Source of the DNA: Permianibacter fluminis | GTDB taxonomy: Bacteria; Pseudomonadota; Gammaproteobacteria; Enterobacterales; Permianibacteraceae | Direction of reading: 5' to 3' | Assembly (NCBI RefSeq): GCF_013179735.1 | Contig: NZ_JABMEG010000002.1 | Location: 62,001-126,000 of the forward strand | DNA: 64,000 bases | Shown: positions 34,239-61,778 of the stretch, piece after piece | Numbering within the stretch: the stretch's first letter is position 1 | Layout of the letters: each line of letters begins with the position of its first letter | The notes under the pieces: generated by a model | Databases searched by the model: none | What the model was told of the DNA's origin: nothing | Seen by the model: the letters and a program-made list of their open reading frames with translations, nothing else | Position numbers and translations under genes: made by a program

Positions 34239-34592
34239 TCAGCGCGCGTTCGCACGCTTGCTGTTCAGCAGCAAACTCAGCAGCAGCACGCTGTCGCTCT
34301 GGGCGTGCAGGCTGTGGCGAACGTTGCCGGCGAGAAAGACCCAGTCACCCGCATTCAGTTGCCGTTCTTCCTGAGCAATGTGCAAGCTCACCGCACCGGA
34401 CAGGCATTGCAAGGTAAGTTCACCGGTGACCTGATGTTCTGCAATGTGCTTGCCGGCCGGCAGCAGCAATCGCGCGACTTCCAGGCTTTCGGTTTTGATC
34501 AGAGTCTGACCGTATACGCGGGTGAAGTGATCATCGTCATCGGTGAGCACGTTCAGCACGTCACCCGAGGCAAGGCGTTTGGTCGCCATCAT
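34239..34592 (-). CDS. Small cupin protein
   Basis: A 117-residue single-cupin protein (VARLLLPAGKHIAEHQVTGELTLQCLSG, then LNAGDWVFLAGNVRHSLHAQSD). Metal ligands are seen as His/His/Glu in motif 1 and His in motif 2. Its start is ATGATG; the first ATG (34592) overlaps the stop of the hemerythrin gene as ATGA and AGGAG lies just upstream, so translation is coupled. It is the third gene of an operon with DUF2249 and hemerythrin genes. Such small cupins near hemerythrin/DUF2249 genes occur in loci tied to nitric oxide and anaerobic respiration; no enzyme function can be assigned. Confidence 0.85.
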   Translation of the reverse strand: MMATKRLASGDVLNVLTDDDDHFTRVYGQTLIKTESLEVARLLLPAGKHIAEHQVTGELTLQCLSGAVSLHIAQEERQLNAGDWVFLAGNVRHSLHAQSDSVLLLSLLLNSKRANAR

Positions 34593-35029
34593 GTCGCTCC
34601 TGTTGTTGCCAGGGCCGCTGCGACCGCTTGCCATTGCCCGGCGGTCAGTCGTTGCTCCAATAGCGGAAACAATTGCCGCTCTTCAAAATGCACATGCGCA
34701 CGCAATTGTTCGCCGAGCGCGCGGCAGCTAACGCCGGTTGCCGGGTCGGTTGTGGCGGCGTCCGCACAGTTTGCCAATGCTTGGCGAAGCGCGACGTGGT
34801 CCTGCTGCAAGCGCAGGCCGTCGGCGCTTTCCTGCAGTTGCACGAGCAGCGGCAGCAACACCGATTCCTCATCGGCAAAATGCTGCAGCAGATCGCGGTG
34901 CCAGCGGCGCAAGGCGTCCTGCGCTACCGCGATGCTCGCTGGCGCGTCGGCTTGCAACAGCCGACGCGCCAGCGTCAGTGCCGGACTGTGTTCACGTGAC
35001 AAACGGTGCAGGGCGGGGTGGCGTCGCAT
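34589..35029 (-). CDS. Hemerythrin HHE-domain protein
   Basis: A 146-residue four-helix di-iron protein. Probable iron ligands: His in LSREHSPAL, His and Glu in LQHFADEESVLLPLL, His in QQDHVALR, and His and Glu in HVHFEERQLFPLLE. This is the HHE arrangement found in YtfE/ScdA-related proteins that handle nitric oxide damage, though the N-terminal ScdA domain is missing. It is the second gene of the operon; the ATG at 35029 lies 42 bases after the DUF2249 stop. An NsrR-like site upstream of the operon supports a nitrosative-stress role. Confidence 0.88.
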   Translation of the reverse strand: MRRHPALHRLSREHSPALTLARRLLQADAPASIAVAQDALRRWHRDLLQHFADEESVLLPLLVQLQESADGLRLQQDHVALRQALANCADAATTDPATGVSCRALGEQLRAHVHFEERQLFPLLEQRLTAGQWQAVAAALATTGAT

Positions 35030-35071
35030 GTGGGTGACTGTCGGCGAAGTGCAAATCAGACGCCAGTCGAT

Positions 35072-35335
35072 TCAACCGGCGCTGCGGCCAAAGTCGATCA
35101 CGATCTGACCCGGCTCGCGGCTTTGGTAGTTGATCTCGACCGCATCGCCGTAGCGGCTGCGAAATTGTGCGAGCAGCGGAATCGGATCATGGTCATTGAC
35201 AAAGCGCATGATTTCGCCAGCTTGCAGACTGTCGAACGCACCAAAAATGGCGGCGTGACGGAACCGTCTGGCGATGCCGCGAGCGTCAAAAACATGGGTG
35301 GTTTGGCCCAGAACGGGCAGGCTGCAATCGTGCAT
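35072..35335 (-). CDS. DUF2249 domain protein
   Basis: An 87-residue protein. DUF2249 is recognised by FDARGIARRFRHAAIFGAFDSLQAGEIMRFVNDHDPIPLLAQF followed by VEINYQSREPGQIVIDF, in short the DP(x)PLLxxF and W/YxxxEPGxxxxxI pattern of this TusA-like fold. The ATG at 35335 has GGAG six bases upstream, so a TTG two codons earlier was not used. DUF2249 proteins often stand beside hemerythrin and denitrification genes. It is the first gene of a three-gene unit. Confidence 0.87.
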   Translation of the reverse strand: MHDCSLPVLGQTTHVFDARGIARRFRHAAIFGAFDSLQAGEIMRFVNDHDPIPLLAQFRSRYGDAVEINYQSREPGQIVIDFGRSAG

Positions 35336-35400
35336 GAGCAACTCCGGGAACAGGGCGACCGGGTGGTCGCGACAGACACAGTTTACGCCGGAATCGCTTA

Positions 35401-35677: not shown

Positions 35678-35713
35678 TTGACATTTAAGACGACTGGTCA
35701 TATTCTTTCCGCC
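35678..35713 (+). promoter_or_regulatory. TetR-family promoter with operator 1; predicted leaderless start
   Basis: TTGACA (35678) and TATTCT (35701) are spaced by 17 bases. The spacer holds TTAAGACGACTGGTC, the first of three copies of this operator. The expected transcription start, about seven bases after the -10, falls at 35713-35714, on the A of the ATG, with no ribosome site in between. Confidence 0.78.
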
Positions 35714-36301
35714 ATGAACGCAAGCACAGACAAAAAGCAGCACCTACTCGAATCCGGCATGGCGGTGATCTTCCGTCAGGGTTACAACGGAACGGGTGTG
35801 CAAGACATCGTGGATGCCGCAGGCGTCCCGAAGGGCTCGTTCTACAACTATTTCGACAGCAAGGAAGCCTTTGCGGTCGAGGGCCTGACCCGGCTGGCGG
35901 AGCAGTCGCAAGCCTGCGCCCGGGCGGTGCTGGCGGATGCGGCGGTAGCGCCGCTGACCCGCGTACTCAATTACTTTGACGGCGCCATGAAGTACCAGAC
36001 CGAAAACGGTTTCTCGGGCGGCTGCATCATCGGCAACCTGTGTCAGGAAATGGCCGACGGCAGCGAGATGATGCGTGAGCGCATCAACGAATTGATGTGT
36101 GCCAAGGTCAAGATGATTGGCCAGTGTCTGGCCGAAGCGCAGCAGCGCGGTGAGTTTCCAGCGGATCGCAGCGCCGAGGACTCGGCCGAGTTTATCTTCT
36201 ACGCTTGGGAAGGTGCGCTGATGCGAATGAAAGCCACCAAGAATGATGAGCCCCTGCAGGCGTTCTTGCGGGTGCTGAAGGGAGTTTGTCTGGTCCACTG
36301 A
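35714..36301 (+). CDS. TetR family repressor, NemR-like
   Basis: A 195-residue repressor. The TetR DNA-binding domain is at about residues 10-56 (FRQGYNGTGVQDIVDAAGVPKGSFYNYFDSKEAFA). The ligand domain has GGCIIGNLCQEMAD, where the first cysteine corresponds to the redox-active position of E. coli NemR, with more cysteines nearby (ELMCAKVKMIGQC). A start at 35714 is supported by the promoter directly upstream; an upstream in-frame extension exists but overlaps the promoter. It is followed by an LpxR-type gene and an Old Yellow Enzyme gene, the latter being the usual NemR target, and by two more copies of its likely operator. Confidence 0.88.
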   Translation: MNASTDKKQHLLESGMAVIFRQGYNGTGVQDIVDAAGVPKGSFYNYFDSKEAFAVEGLTRLAEQSQACARAVLADAAVAPLTRVLNYFDGAMKYQTENGFSGGCIIGNLCQEMADGSEMMRERINELMCAKVKMIGQCLAEAQQRGEFPADRSAEDSAEFIFYAWEGALMRMKATKNDEPLQAFLRVLKGVCLVH

Positions 36302-36382
36302 TTGGATGCGCCCGCCTCTGGCGGCCCGCTCCTTCGGTGGAGTGGGAGCCAGGGATGATGGCGCAAAATTTTTTGCTACAAC

Positions 36383-36397
36383 TTAAGACGACTGGTC
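36383..36397 (+). promoter_or_regulatory. Operator 2 (TetR-type)
   Basis: TTAAGACGACTGGTC, a 15-base identity with operator 1, lies 82 bases after the repressor stop and before a terminator. TTGCTA at 36373 and CATTTA at 36399 are weak promoter candidates with poor spacing. Confidence 0.7.
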
Positions 36398-36437
36398 GCA
36401 TTTATGCGCTGCAGCATTGGCGCGCCACCGGTCTTGC

Positions 36438-36459
36438 AGAGCCCTCGGGCTCTTTTTTT
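36438..36459 (+). terminator. Rho-independent terminator between operators 2 and 3
   Basis: AGAGCCC TC GGGCTCT is followed by a T7 run. It may end the repressor transcript, or a very short RNA started at operator 2. Confidence 0.88.
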
Positions 36460-36470
36460 GAAGACCACAC

Positions 36471-36483
36471 AAGACGACTGGTC
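36471..36483 (+). promoter_or_regulatory. Operator 3 (TetR-type) upstream of the LpxR-like gene
   Basis: AAGACGACTGGTC, identical over 13 bases to operators 1 and 2, lies 23 bases before the ATG of the LpxR-like gene. TTGAAG at 36458 could be a -35. Confidence 0.78.
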
Positions 36484-36506: not shown

Positions 36507-37580
36507 ATGAAAGCCCAACTAACCGCGCTGAGCCTGTTGATTGCCAGCGCACTGACCCAACCGGCCTTGGCCAACAGCGGCGCCAGCGAGCGTTTCGCCA
36601 ATGAGCCGGACAACACCGGCTGGGCGATTTACATCGACAACGATGTGCTGTCGCCGGGTAGCTCGGATCGCGATTACACCGGCGGCTTCTCGGTGACGCT
36701 GTCGGGCAAGTCTGCGCAAAACGCGCTGTTGTCGGTCGACGATTGGCGCGCCGGTCTGGATCGGTTCAGCGGCCTTGCCGACGTTTATTCCGATGCGGCG
36801 TTCAGCCGACACAGCCTGGAAATGGGCGTGACGGTGTTCACCCCGCAGGAGTTGTCGAATCGCGCGCTGCAAGTGGGTGATCGGCCGTATGCGAGCCTGC
36901 TGTATCTGGCCAACACCGCGATCAACGTGGTGCCGGAGCGCGAGGTCGCGTACCTGTCCACGCTGACCATTGGTGTGCTCGGTGCACACGCGGTAGCCAA
37001 TCTGCAACAAGGGCTGCACGAAGTGCTGGGTTCGGAAGAACCGGTGGGCTGGGACAATCAAATCAGTGACGGTGGCGAGCTGACGTTTCGTTACAGCGTG
37101 GCGCGCGCCGACCGCAGTTGGGCCGGCACAATCGGCGGCACTGCCGGCGAACTGACCACGACCATGCGCGCCAGCGTCGGTTACCTGACCGAAGCGAGCA
37201 TTGGTTTTGCGACCCGGTTCGGTGACATCCGGACACCGTGGTGGAGTTACAACCCGCAGATCGCCGATTACGCCGAAAAATCGGTGCCGATTGCCGCCAG
37301 CGAAGGCAGTGGCCCGGAGCAATACGTTTGGGCTGGCGTGAACATTCGGGCCCGTGCGTATAACGCGTTTTTGCAAGGCCAGTTTCGTGACAGCGACGTG
37401 ACGTTTTCCCACAACGAGCTACGGCCGTTCGTGTTCGAGGCTTGGCTCGGTTACACCTTTGCAACGGCACATGGCTGGCGCTATTCGTATCTGCTGCGTG
37501 GGCAGAGCGCCGAAATTGAAGACGGGCCGGCAGATCGTTCCGTGCTCTGGGGTGGTCTCATCATCAGCCAGAGTTTTTGA
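36507..37580 (+). CDS. LpxR family (DUF2219) lipid A deacylase-like outer-membrane protein
   Basis: A 357-residue predicted outer-membrane beta-barrel with signal peptide MKAQLTALSLLIASALTQPALA. The LpxR signature is clear: YIDNDVLSPGSSDRDYTGGFSVTLSG, then VGDRPYASLLYL, the TIGVLGAHAVANLQQGLHEVLGSEEPVGWDNQI region and the C-terminal RSVLWGGLIISQSF ending in Phe. LpxR removes the 3'-acyloxyacyl chain of lipid A in a calcium-dependent way; the Asn-Asp pair near residue 45 corresponds to its active-site region. It is placed directly after TetR operator 3 and before the OYE gene, so it is probably induced by the same stress. Confidence 0.88.
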   Translation: MKAQLTALSLLIASALTQPALANSGASERFANEPDNTGWAIYIDNDVLSPGSSDRDYTGGFSVTLSGKSAQNALLSVDDWRAGLDRFSGLADVYSDAAFSRHSLEMGVTVFTPQELSNRALQVGDRPYASLLYLANTAINVVPEREVAYLSTLTIGVLGAHAVANLQQGLHEVLGSEEPVGWDNQISDGGELTFRYSVARADRSWAGTIGGTAGELTTTMRASVGYLTEASIGFATRFGDIRTPWWSYNPQIADYAEKSVPIAASEGSGPEQYVWAGVNIRARAYNAFLQGQFRDSDVTFSHNELRPFVFEAWLGYTFATAHGWRYSYLLRGQSAEIEDGPADRSVLWGGLIISQSF

Positions 37581-37647: not shown

Positions 37648-37745
37648 CATTACCGATTTTCGTATCAATAACAAGCGTATTACCAGCAACCGTAACAACA
37701 AATGTAACAACAATCGTAACGACAATCGTAACAACAACTGCAGCC
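37648..37745 (+). repeat. AAC-rich trinucleotide tract
   Basis: Imperfect repetition of CGTAACAACAA-type units (CGTAACAACAAATGTAACAA and relatives) lies between the LpxR-like and OYE genes. C and A dominate and T is sparse. Frames across it give only Asn-rich or Val/Thr-rich nonsense. It may act as an unstructured mRNA spacer. Confidence 0.75.
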
Positions 37746-37809: not shown

Positions 37810-38976
37810 ATGACTGAAGCAGCGAAAAAATTTCTCAGCAATGATCCGGCTGGTGAACTGTTCACCCCGATCACGGTCGGCCGTTGGCAGTTGCCGCATC
37901 GGGTGGCGATGGCGCCGATGACGCGTTCGCGCGCCGGTCAGCCGGGCAACGTGCCTACCGACATGATGACGGAATACTACCGTCAGCGCGCCGGCGCCGC
38001 TTTGATCATCACCGAAGCCACTCAAGTGTCGGCAACGGCGCAGGGTTACGCCTGGACGCCCGGCATCCATACCGCCGAGCAAGTCGAAGGCTGGAAGAAA
38101 GTCACCGACGCGGTGCATCGCGAAGGCGGCAAGATTGTCGTGCAGCTGTGGCATGTCGGCCGGATCTCGCACCGCGCCCTGCAACCGGGCAAGCAATTGC
38201 CGGTCGCACCGAGCGCGATCAAACCGGAAGGCAATGCCTTTATTGTCGACGATCAGGGCAATCCGGCGTTTGTGCCGTTTGAAACCCCGCGTGCGCTCGA
38301 TCGCAACGAGATTCACGGCATTGTCGCGGATTTTGTCAATGCCGCCCGTAACGCCATTGATGCCGGTTTCGACGGTGTCGAAATCCATTCTGCCAACGGC
38401 TATTTGTTGGACCAATTTCTGAACACCGCCAGCAACCAGCGTGACGACGAATACGGCGGCACCATCGCCAACCGGGCGCGTCTGACGTTGCAAGTGGTGG
38501 ATGCGGTGCTGGCGACGATCGGTGCAGACCGGGTCGGTGTACGCATCAGCCCGATGGGCCATTTCAACAGCATGGGTATGGATGATCCGGAAGCCATGTA
38601 CAGCTACCTGAGTGAAGAGCTGAACAAGCGCGGTCTGGCGTATCTGCATGTCATTTCGCCGCGCTCGCAAGTGCCGGCCGATTCCGCCGACAAGGAAACC
38701 GGCAAGCAGATGCAACTGGCCGACCGCATTCTGAAAGCCATTCGCAGCCGCTACGACGGTGTGCTGATGCTGGCGGGCGGCTTTGACCGCAGCAGCGCCG
38801 AGACTTCGCTCGCCAGTGGCGAAGCTGATCTGCTGGCATTTGGCAAACCGTTCCTGGCCAATCCGGATCTGCCGAAACGCTTGCAATTGCGCGCGGCATT
38901 GAATGAGCCGAACCCGCAGACCTTTTACGGCGGAGGGGCATCCGGCTACACGGATTATCCCTTTCTCGTTGCCTAG
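37810..38976 (+). CDS. Old Yellow Enzyme family alkene reductase (NemA-like)
   Basis: A 388-residue FMN enzyme. The N-terminus LFTPITVGRWQLPHRVAMAPMTRSRA, the substrate-binding His-Asn stretch EIHSANGYLLDQFLNTASNQRDDEYGG, and the C-terminal flavin site MLAGGFDRSSAETSLASGEADLLAFGKPFLANPDLP identify the OYE family. It reduces activated double bonds of electrophiles such as N-ethylmaleimide, quinones or nitrate esters with NADPH. The ATG at 37810 has GGGGAG six bases upstream. It probably belongs to the NemR-like regulon with the LpxR-type gene 230 bases upstream. Confidence 0.95.
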   Translation: MTEAAKKFLSNDPAGELFTPITVGRWQLPHRVAMAPMTRSRAGQPGNVPTDMMTEYYRQRAGAALIITEATQVSATAQGYAWTPGIHTAEQVEGWKKVTDAVHREGGKIVVQLWHVGRISHRALQPGKQLPVAPSAIKPEGNAFIVDDQGNPAFVPFETPRALDRNEIHGIVADFVNAARNAIDAGFDGVEIHSANGYLLDQFLNTASNQRDDEYGGTIANRARLTLQVVDAVLATIGADRVGVRISPMGHFNSMGMDDPEAMYSYLSEELNKRGLAYLHVISPRSQVPADSADKETGKQMQLADRILKAIRSRYDGVLMLAGGFDRSSAETSLASGEADLLAFGKPFLANPDLPKRLQLRAALNEPNPQTFYGGGASGYTDYPFLVA

Positions 38977-39320
38977 GAGTTGGTTGCGAGCGGCGAGCTG
39001 AAGATGACTGGTTGGCGGTCAAGGCCGAGCGCTAAGCATTGACTGCTTGGCCTTGACCGCCGCGTCTTTGTCCACGCGCAGCGCGCATCGGCAAGGGGCG
39101 TTGCGAGCGCCATGTCGATGCCAGCGTCGGCGTGGGGGTAAACGGCGTTTGACCGCGCTATTTGCTTATTGTGTTTTCCCACAGCATCGGTTCGCCTTGG
39201 CGCGGGCCGGTGTTTTTTTCTTCACTGCGGTGGCAGCGCTGATGAAGCGCCGCAAGCGACTTCACCGGCGCTGTTATCGCATCACGTAAATGGTTGTCGG
39301 ATGGCGACGGGTGAGGGGAT
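38977..39320. other. Intergenic region with a large hairpin
   Basis: No gene is seen. It contains the inverted repeat at 39014-39061, and the rest shows no promoter with good hexamers. A short plus frame (39047-39289) is Arg/Ala-rich nonsense. Confidence 0.5.
39014..39061. repeat. 13-base inverted repeat hairpin after the OYE gene
   Basis: GGCGGTCAAGGCC / GGCCTTGACCGCC, with a nested AAGCA / TGCTT stem inside, lies 38 bases after the OYE stop. There is no T-run, so it could be an RNA-stabilising end or a Rho-type end. Confidence 0.75.
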
Positions 39321-59372: not shown

Positions 59373-61778
59373 ATGATGGCGAAAATTATTCCTCTTATCG
59401 GTTTGTCTGTGCTGACTGCGCTCGGTAGTGCCGCAGTCGTGGCCGCTCCCGAGCTGACCCTGGAACAGATCATGGCGCATCCGGATTGGCTCGGTACCGC
59501 ACCGGAGCAGCCATTCTTCAGCGCGGATGGCAAGCAGGTGTACTACCAGCGCAAAGCGGTAGGCAGTGAATTGCGCGATCTGTATCGCATCAGCGTCAGT
59601 GGTGGCGATGCCAGCAAACTGGACGCTCAGGCGACCGTTAGCGCAGAAACCGACGAGCGGATTTTCAGTGCGGATCGGCGCAGCGTGGCCTGGCTGCGCG
59701 ACGGCAATCTGTTTGTCAGTCAGGACGGCAAGCGCCGGCAACTGCTGCGCACCGGCGAAGCCGGCGAATTGCTGACCTTTGTTGGCAACGACCAGCTGGC
59801 GTTGCGCGATGATGGCAAGTTGCTGCTGCTGGATTTGCGCAGCGGTGCCCAGAGCCTGCTGGCGACCCTGAAAACCGAAGACGACCCGGCGGCGGAACAG
59901 GATGAGGACGATTACCTCAGTGCCGAGCAATCGCGCCTGTTTGACATCATCAAGAAGCGTGAGCAGCGCAAAGCCGAGCGCGAAGCGCGGCAAAAAGCGC
60001 TGGCTGCACAGGCTGGCAGCGTGCCGGCGCCGATTTACCTCGGCAAGAATCGGGAATTGAAAACGGTTAGCCTGGCGCCCAATGGCCGTTATCTGATCGT
60101 TGGCACGATTGCGCCGAAGCGCGATGGTCGGGCTGATAAGATGCCGCATTACGTCAGTGCTGATGGTTACGTCAAAATTGAAGATGTGCGAAGCAAGGTG
60201 GGTACGGATCAGCCGGATGATGAAACGCTGTATCTGATCGAACTGGCGACGGCGAAAGTCAGCAAACTGGGTTACGACAAACTGCCCGGCATCAACGACG
60301 ATCCGTTGCTGGCGTTGAAGGCGGAGGTCGCCAAACGGGCTGGCAAGGAAGCGCCGAAGGCGGCCGCGCCGCGCGCGGTGTATGTGCAAGATGACTGGTC
60401 CAATGGTGCCAAAGGGGTGCAGTGGAGCCGGACCGGCAAGCGCGTCGCGATCGATCTGTTCAGCTACGACAACAAGGACCGCTGGCTGGTGGAAGTGGAT
60501 CTGGCCGAGGCTGAGCTCAACACCGTGCATCGGCTCACCGACAACGCCTGGGTCAATGACAGCGAGTTCAACGAATTTGGCTGGTTGGCCGATGAGCAGT
60601 CGCTGTGGTACCTGTCGGAAGAAAGTGGCTACAGCCAGCTGTATGTGCACCATGATGGCAGCAGCAAGGCGCTGACCAGCGGCAAGTTTGAAGTGAACCG
60701 GGTGCAGCCAACCGCCACTGGCGACTGGTTTTATTATCGCGCCAACAAAAAGCATCCCGGCCTGCACGAAGTTTATCGGGTCAGCCGTGACGGCGGCCGC
60801 GATGAGGCAATAACGGATCTCGGCGGCGGCATCGAGTTTCAATTGGCACCCAGTGATGATCGGTTGCTGCTGGTGCATTCCAAAACCACCCAGCCGCCGG
60901 AACTGTTCGTGCAAGCGGCGGCACCCGGCGCCAAGGCCAAACAGCTGACCCATACCGTTACGCCAGCGTTTTCGGCAATCGACTGGGTCAAACCGGAAAT
61001 TGTCGCGGTGCCATCCAAGCACGGTGCAGCGCCGATTTACTCGCGGCTGTATCGCGATGAAACGACCAAGAGCGGCGCCCGCAAACCGGCTGTCATGTTT
61101 GTCCACGGCGCCGGCTATTTGCAGAATGCGCATTACGGCTGGTCAACCTATTTCCGCGAATACATGTTCCATAACCTGTTGCTGAAACAAGGTTATGTGG
61201 TCATCGACATGGATTACCGCGCTTCCGAAGGTTATGGCCGTGATTGGCGTACCGCGATCTATCAGCGCATGGGCACGCCGGAGCTGGAAGACTATCTCGA
61301 CGGCGTCGATTGGCTGGTCGACAACGCCAACGTCGATCGCAATCGGATTGGTATTTATGGCGGCTCTTACGGCGGCTTCATGACCTTCATGGCGCTGTTC
61401 AAGACGCCCGAGGTGTTTGCGGCCGGTGCGGCGCTGCGGCCGGTGGCGGATTGGGCGCATTACAACCATGGCTACACCGCCAACATCCTGAACACCCCGC
61501 AAGTCGATCCGGACGCTTACGCGCGCAGCTCGCCAATCGAGTTTGCCGCCGCGCTGAAACGGCCCTTGCTGATTTGCACCGGCATGCTGGATGACAACGT
61601 GTTCTTTCAGGACAGCGTGCGGTTGGTGCAGCGCTTGATCGAATTGAAGAACCCGAATTTCGATCTGGCGGTGTATCCAATCGAGCCGCACGGCTTCCGC
61701 GAACCGGAAAGCTGGCTGGACGAATACCGGCGCATTTACCGCCTGATGGAACGCGAAGTCAAAAATCGCGGGCACTGA
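59373..61778 (+). CDS. S9 family dipeptidyl/acylaminoacyl peptidase, exported
   Basis: An 801-residue peptidase with signal MMAKIIPLIGLSVLTALGSAAVVAAP. The propeller part (to about residue 530) holds a charged insertion (about 165-215; DEDDYLSAEQSRLFDIIKK, EQRKAEREARQKAL). The catalytic domain has FVHGAGYLQNAHYG, Ser in GGSYGGFMTFMAL, Asp in TGMLDDNVFFQD and His in EPHGFREPESW. It is distinct from the preceding S9 protein and closer to the dipeptidyl-peptidase IV-like group. The start lies two bases beyond the previous stop, so the pair is an operon for peptide breakdown in the periplasm. Confidence 0.95.
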   Translation: MMAKIIPLIGLSVLTALGSAAVVAAPELTLEQIMAHPDWLGTAPEQPFFSADGKQVYYQRKAVGSELRDLYRISVSGGDASKLDAQATVSAETDERIFSADRRSVAWLRDGNLFVSQDGKRRQLLRTGEAGELLTFVGNDQLALRDDGKLLLLDLRSGAQSLLATLKTEDDPAAEQDEDDYLSAEQSRLFDIIKKREQRKAEREARQKALAAQAGSVPAPIYLGKNRELKTVSLAPNGRYLIVGTIAPKRDGRADKMPHYVSADGYVKIEDVRSKVGTDQPDDETLYLIELATAKVSKLGYDKLPGINDDPLLALKAEVAKRAGKEAPKAAAPRAVYVQDDWSNGAKGVQWSRTGKRVAIDLFSYDNKDRWLVEVDLAEAELNTVHRLTDNAWVNDSEFNEFGWLADEQSLWYLSEESGYSQLYVHHDGSSKALTSGKFEVNRVQPTATGDWFYYRANKKHPGLHEVYRVSRDGGRDEAITDLGGGIEFQLAPSDDRLLLVHSKTTQPPELFVQAAAPGAKAKQLTHTVTPAFSAIDWVKPEIVAVPSKHGAAPIYSRLYRDETTKSGARKPAVMFVHGAGYLQNAHYGWSTYFREYMFHNLLLKQGYVVIDMDYRASEGYGRDWRTAIYQRMGTPELEDYLDGVDWLVDNANVDRNRIGIYGGSYGGFMTFMALFKTPEVFAAGAALRPVADWAHYNHGYTANILNTPQVDPDAYARSSPIEFAAALKRPLLICTGMLDDNVFFQDSVRLVQRLIELKNPNFDLAVYPIEPHGFREPESWLDEYRRIYRLMEREVKNRGH

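Follow-up and report, generated by a model that had tools for sequence, protein, structure and literature searches.

Organisation of the tetR–lpxR–OYE locus

The window analysed here, a 64,000 nt stretch of the Permianibacter fluminis genome, harbours on its plus strand a TetR-family repressor gene, an lpxR-like gene and an OYE gene, with three copies of the 13-mer AAGACGACTGGTC distributed around them (Table 1). An earlier, sequence-only reading of this DNA had described three identical copies on the same strand, the first two being alike over 15 bases, and a search of the window returned precisely this arrangement: three exact plus-strand matches, with TTAAGACGACTGGTC present at both copies 1 and 2. 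Its placement of copy 1 inside the promoter of a NemR-like tetR gene, and of copy 3 directly upstream of the lpxR-like gene, was likewise borne out, as copy 1 fills the 17 bp spacer between TTGACA and TATTCT, and the lpxR ATG (36507) is found 23 nt beyond copy 3.

Table 1. Features of the repressor locus and their positions within the window
Feature	Position	Strand	Remarks
tetR promoter, sigma-70-type	35678–35706	+	TTGACA, 17 bp spacer, TATTCT; consensus match 10/12; encloses operator copy 1
Operator copy 1, AAGACGACTGGTC(AT)	35687–35699	+	Kept in the congener (L061) and most homologues
TetR-family repressor gene (tetR)	35714–36301	+	TetR_N and TetR_C_13; NemR/AcuR-like
Operator copy 2	36385–36397	+	Exact match; upstream member of the pair before lpxR
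Intrinsic-terminator-like hairpin and T run	36438–36459 (hairpin 36438–36453)	+	Between copies 2 and 3
Operator copy 3	36471–36483	+	Directly 5′ of lpxR
lpxR-like gene	36507–37580	+	Outer-membrane lipid A 3′-O-deacylase family
OYE gene, N-ethylmaleimide reductase subfamily	37810–38976	+	FMN ene-reductase; right after lpxR in the congener (L061)

The tetR ATG (35714) lies 7–8 nt past the −10 element, and so coincides with the expected transcription start, and no Shine–Dalgarno sequence is visible before it; due to these two features the tetR mRNA is predicted to be leaderless. Promoter geometry around the operator is alike at most homologues, with the ATG falling 11–14 nt beyond the operator core at 36 of 56 homologue sites. 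Around copy 2 there are no good promoter hexamers, and its flank reads GTCGC, departing from GTCAT. The hairpin and T run that separate copies 2 and 3 probably end the tetR transcript. The OYE gene begins 230 bp beyond lpxR, has no operator of its own, and is probably the second gene of the lpxR transcript; in the congener the corresponding gap is only ~40 bp, which suggests one transcript for both genes. Within the 230 bp gap of the window, a 12 bp unit, CAATCGTAACAA, is repeated in tandem (4.2 copies, 37687–37737). Just upstream of the tetR promoter, the minus strand (34239–35341) encodes a protein with a weak cupin match, an unclassified small protein (34589–35029), which we take to resemble hemerythrin-type proteins, and a DUF2249 protein.

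Operator copies in the genome and among homologues

The palindrome at each of the three sites, GAC-N5-GTC, is imperfect, its two flanks being unlike, and the flanking bases also vary from copy to copy. Across the 64 kb window, AAGACGACTGGTC is the only 13-mer with three copies inside 800 bp, and it has five matches at up to two mismatches, compared with 0.84 ± 0.96 in shuffled sequence. Near-matches at 60388, which falls in an apparent peptidase coding region, and at 39001–39013 (AAGATGACTGGTT), which has no GTC half, follows closely on the OYE stop and is probably due to chance, were rejected as operators.

Extending the search to the whole genome (4,359,061 bases) reveals four exact copies of GACGACTGGTC, three of them at the tetR–lpxR–OYE locus and the fourth within a long open reading frame, a TonB-receptor-like gene. 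The 15-mer AAGACGACYGGTCRT occurs at 0–1 mismatch only at the three locus sites; when scanned to three mismatches, its next best matches are twelve with two mismatches, which are mostly in coding frames and whose number is not above chance. From these genome-wide word scans it therefore follows that the operator copies are real and confined to this locus in the Permianibacter genome, and the 13-mer, with its one stray copy in an open reading frame, is not scattered over coding regions. The sequence-only reading had also presented the operator as a key to the full regulon. No regulon beyond this locus emerged: the alternative flavour TAGACGAYYGGTCTA is absent from the genome, with a single 2-mismatch match only, and scanning with both operator flavours produced no further good site. 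As the genome lacks any other such site, the regulon is probably local, consisting of the tetR–lpxR–OYE locus rather than extending genome-wide.

With regard to conservation beyond this genome, the congener displays the same TetR-LpxR-OYE order, with a TetR that is 62–63 % identical, and carries GACGACCGGTC three times, once ahead of tetR and twice ahead of lpxR. Amongst the 24 closest TetR homologues from relatives, which were picked by protein similarity alone and without regard to any site, GAC-N5-GTC is present in the 250 bp upstream of 21 (chance expectation roughly 6 %), whilst none of five remoter TetRs has it. A scan of 84,980 species genomes, using a four-sequence alignment as the query, returned 80 loci, many of which have TAAGACGACYGGTCATAT ahead of tetR, frequently with a further copy ahead of the following gene; these span the Alpha-, Beta- and Gammaproteobacteria, the Desulfobacterota and a few other phyla. 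Two flavours can be distinguished, AAGACGACYGGTCAT in the window and TAGACGACYGGTCTA in more distant relatives, the latter being carried with one extra base by Escherichia coli nemR. Comparison of orthologous loci, in both the congener and other homologues, thereby finds the operator conserved, and the proposal of a selected TetR-type operator with a GAC-N5-GTC core is supported by this conservation together with the uniqueness of the site in the genome. Its distribution marks the site as the operator typical of a broad TetR_C_13 (NemR/AcuR-like) subgroup, rather than one private to the window genome. In two Rhodospirillaceae loci (L187 and L192) paired AGACCG(TT/AA)CGGTC elements of longer spacing replace the usual operator upstream of tetR, and the next gene is an OYE.

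The repressor, its partner proteins and the linkage to lpxR

The repressor of the window belongs to the TetR family and to the C-terminal class TetR_C_13, scoring 51.2 bits for TetR_N (PF00440; cut-off 24) and 80.9 bits for TetR_C_13 (PF16925; cut-off 27). Its best NCBIfam model is AcuR, at 148.6 bits, which is under the equivalog cut-off of 247, and the CurR equivalog (99.6 bits against a cut-off of 300) is not reached either. There is no acuI beside the gene, the neighbours being lpxR and OYE. NemR ranks third among the PDB matches (82.7 bits). The redox cysteine of that protein, Cys106, has its aligned counterpart in Cys104 of the window repressor, which 119 of 122 homologues retain.

Operators within the homologue set end in either GTCAY or GTCTA, and two residues of the helix–turn–helix vary with this ending. 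Of 41 regulators with GTCAY operators, 40 have V, T or A at position 33 and all 41 have N at position 45, whilst the 33 regulators with GTCTA operators all have L at position 33 and are variable at position 45 (mostly H, Y or F, otherwise N); in the window TetR positions 33 and 45 are encoded at 35810–35812 and 35846–35848, respectively. Leu33 is also seen together with GTCAY or GTCGT sites in a small number of regulators. Together, residues 33 and 45 form a candidate code for GTCAY versus GTCTA specificity, which is a lead and not proof, as phylogeny separates the two operator classes as well.

The lpxR product matches Pfam LpxR (PF09982) over its full length (residues 11–354; 153.2 bits, cut-off 26), although a single-sequence phmmer search with it against the PDB gave no match. 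At the catalytic positions it has N45, D46, T58, Q167 and H171. The last three correspond to T34, Q118 and H122 in a weak profile alignment to 3fid (E 0.0036), and N45-D46 are assigned to N9-D10 by their position in the family. N9, D10, S/T34, Q118 and H122 are needed for deacylation in Yersinia LpxR and are located in the Salmonella active site (PMC3486919). The window LpxR is a putative lipid A 3′-O-deacylase. The OYE exceeds the cut-off of the N-ethylmaleimide reductase model NF007899 (453 bits against 403).

An lpxR gene downstream of tetR, with TetR and operators, occurs at 14 non-duplicate loci, and all five catalytic-position residues are invariant across them. A perfect or 1-mismatch operator precedes tetR in 13 of these loci, and at least one such site precedes lpxR, again in 13. 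Two sites before lpxR (at up to two mismatches) are found in 9/14, separated by 29–33 bp in five loci and by 59, 59, 68 and 86 bp in the remaining four. The 14 lpxR-linked proteins all group inside a single 17-member clade (support 99/92) of a maximum-likelihood tree built from 98 TetRs; for the other three members of this clade, one contig ends 126 bp past tetR, and the other two have a glutathione S-transferase and a CysE-like gene, as named from their sequences. Mapped onto this tree, lpxR linkage requires 4 changes, compared with 13.2 in shuffles, none of 500 of which was as low. The window genome and its congener are alone in having an OYE alongside lpxR, and elsewhere in the clade detoxification neighbours with sites include OYE, glutathione S-transferase and a YhdH/AcuI-like reductase. 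In a Spongiibacteraceae MAG (L133), lpxR is followed by an apparent thioredoxin, an AhpD-like protein and a glutathione S-transferase, and a transferase similar to the latter follows tetR at another locus (L144). What stands out from these gene neighbourhoods is the conserved pairing of lpxR with a NemR/AcuR-like repressor.

Proposed regulation and comparison with known systems

The three 13-mers are very probably operators of the TetR_C_13 repressor that is encoded between copies 1 and 2, with both binding by the local TetR and the sign of regulation being what we infer. It is hardly credible that they instead represent a small repeat of mobile origin or a piece of promoter kept by conservation: whilst copy 1 does overlap a promoter, the flanks differ among the copies, the 15-mer recurs nowhere else in the genome at up to one mismatch, and in several phyla it is the TetR gene, not promoters at large, that the word accompanies. 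Recognition by a TetR-family protein from some other locus of the genome is similarly improbable, as the remaining TetR matches there are distant ones (E about 1e-5 to 1e-7) and homologues bear the site before their own gene, even if a neighbouring position is by itself no proof of the binder. A tentative case can be made that only copies 1 and 3 operate, and that copy 2 is decaying or auxiliary, with little effect. Its lack of nearby promoter hexamers, the terminator-like hairpin downstream of it and its divergent flank would all fit, but the recurrence of a second site before lpxR in 9 of the 14 loci, at 29–33 bp spacing in five, counts against this reading.

Assuming that all three copies are used by the local repressor, a TetR dimer on copy 1 would cover the tetR promoter spacer and block RNA polymerase, resulting in autorepression, whilst dimers on copies 2 and 3 would shut the lpxR promoter; OYE would be silenced via this same promoter, by read-through. 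Electrophiles or oxidants would modify Cys104, such that the repressor leaves the DNA. Once released, LpxR would strip the 3′-acyl chain from outer-membrane lipid A, and OYE would reduce electrophilic alkenes. The electrophile step is less certain than the operator and repressor part, and electrophiles are put forward as the inducer with a modest degree of confidence. Cys104 is no proof of thiol sensing, because it is near-universal in a family that may include ligand sensors, such as AcuR, which responds to acrylate. The neighbours found in related loci (OYE, GST and a YhdH/AcuI-like reductase, along with the thioredoxin and AhpD-like protein of L133) fit electrophile/thiol stress.

The same operators and repressor could also serve a small ligand, for example acrylate or another unsaturated acid, or else a lipid/fatty-acid signal from the envelope. 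This is in keeping with the acrylate sensor AcuR being the best, albeit sub-cut-off, NCBIfam model, and with the constant partner being an outer-membrane lipid enzyme whilst OYE is restricted to the window and its congener. Conservation of Cys104, and the electrophile-detoxifying genes that adjoin relatives, weigh against it, and we consider a ligand of this kind rather unlikely. For electrophile sensing, the broader proposition, that a widespread gammaproteobacterial circuit has a NemR-type thiol electrophile sensor directly controlling lipid A deacylation via tandem operators, seems to us evenly poised. If true, it would tie cytoplasmic electrophile sensing to outer-leaflet remodelling, and were the sensor electrophile-responsive, lipid A deacylation would join the chemical-stress response, beyond being a host-interaction trait. 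It is conjecture that 3′-deacylation under such stress changes how the outer leaflet packs and, with it, how readily reactive compounds enter. For a TetR subgroup that is large and mostly unstudied, the analysis supplies an operator that can be tested, and it gives the lpxR of many environmental gammaproteobacteria a direct candidate regulator; the lpxR control that we found described is by global regulators such as PhoPQ and RovA.

The kind of operator is already known, whilst lpxR as its target is apparently unreported: within the open-access literature we found no report of lpxR as the target of a dedicated TetR repressor. The operator 11-mer and its reverse complement appear in open-access text in seemingly incidental occurrences, with no title or abstract on such an operator, which is weak evidence of novelty. 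The lpxR of Yersinia enterocolitica belongs to the same lipid A 3′-O-deacylase family and shares its catalytic positions with the window LpxR; it is controlled by RovA, PhoPQ and PmrAB, and a dedicated TetR neighbour is not described in the excerpts available of that study (PMC3486919). AltR of Pantoea ananatis, like the window repressor, is NemR-related, with an inverted-repeat operator in its own promoter and a conserved cysteine, which is required for AltR/NemR derepression (PMC13178969). Its operator, CAATCTAC-N6-GTAGATTG, is unrelated to that of the window, however, and its targets also differ.

AcuR of Rhodobacter sphaeroides (acuR-acuI-dddL), the best curated family match, represses its own leaderless operon via TAATAGAC-N6-GTCTATTA (PMC3017554), and a leaderless repressor mRNA is likewise predicted in the window. 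In contrast to that system, the window repressor scores below the AcuR cut-off, has neither acuI nor dddL as a neighbour, and has other target genes. The E. coli NemR-nemA(-gloA) system resembles the window in that a TetR_C_13-type repressor gene lies directly upstream of an NEM-reductase-type OYE. The nemR operator, TAGACCGACTGGTCTA as read from MG1655, is similarly located in its own promoter and has the core GACTGGTC in common with the window. The two repressors have low sequence identity but an aligned redox cysteine. GAC and GTC are separated by 5 bases in the window and by 6 at E. coli nemR, and the outer operator bases are AAGAC/GTCAT and TAGAC/GTCTA, respectively. Unlike the NemR system, the window has lpxR, with operators of its own, between the repressor and OYE.
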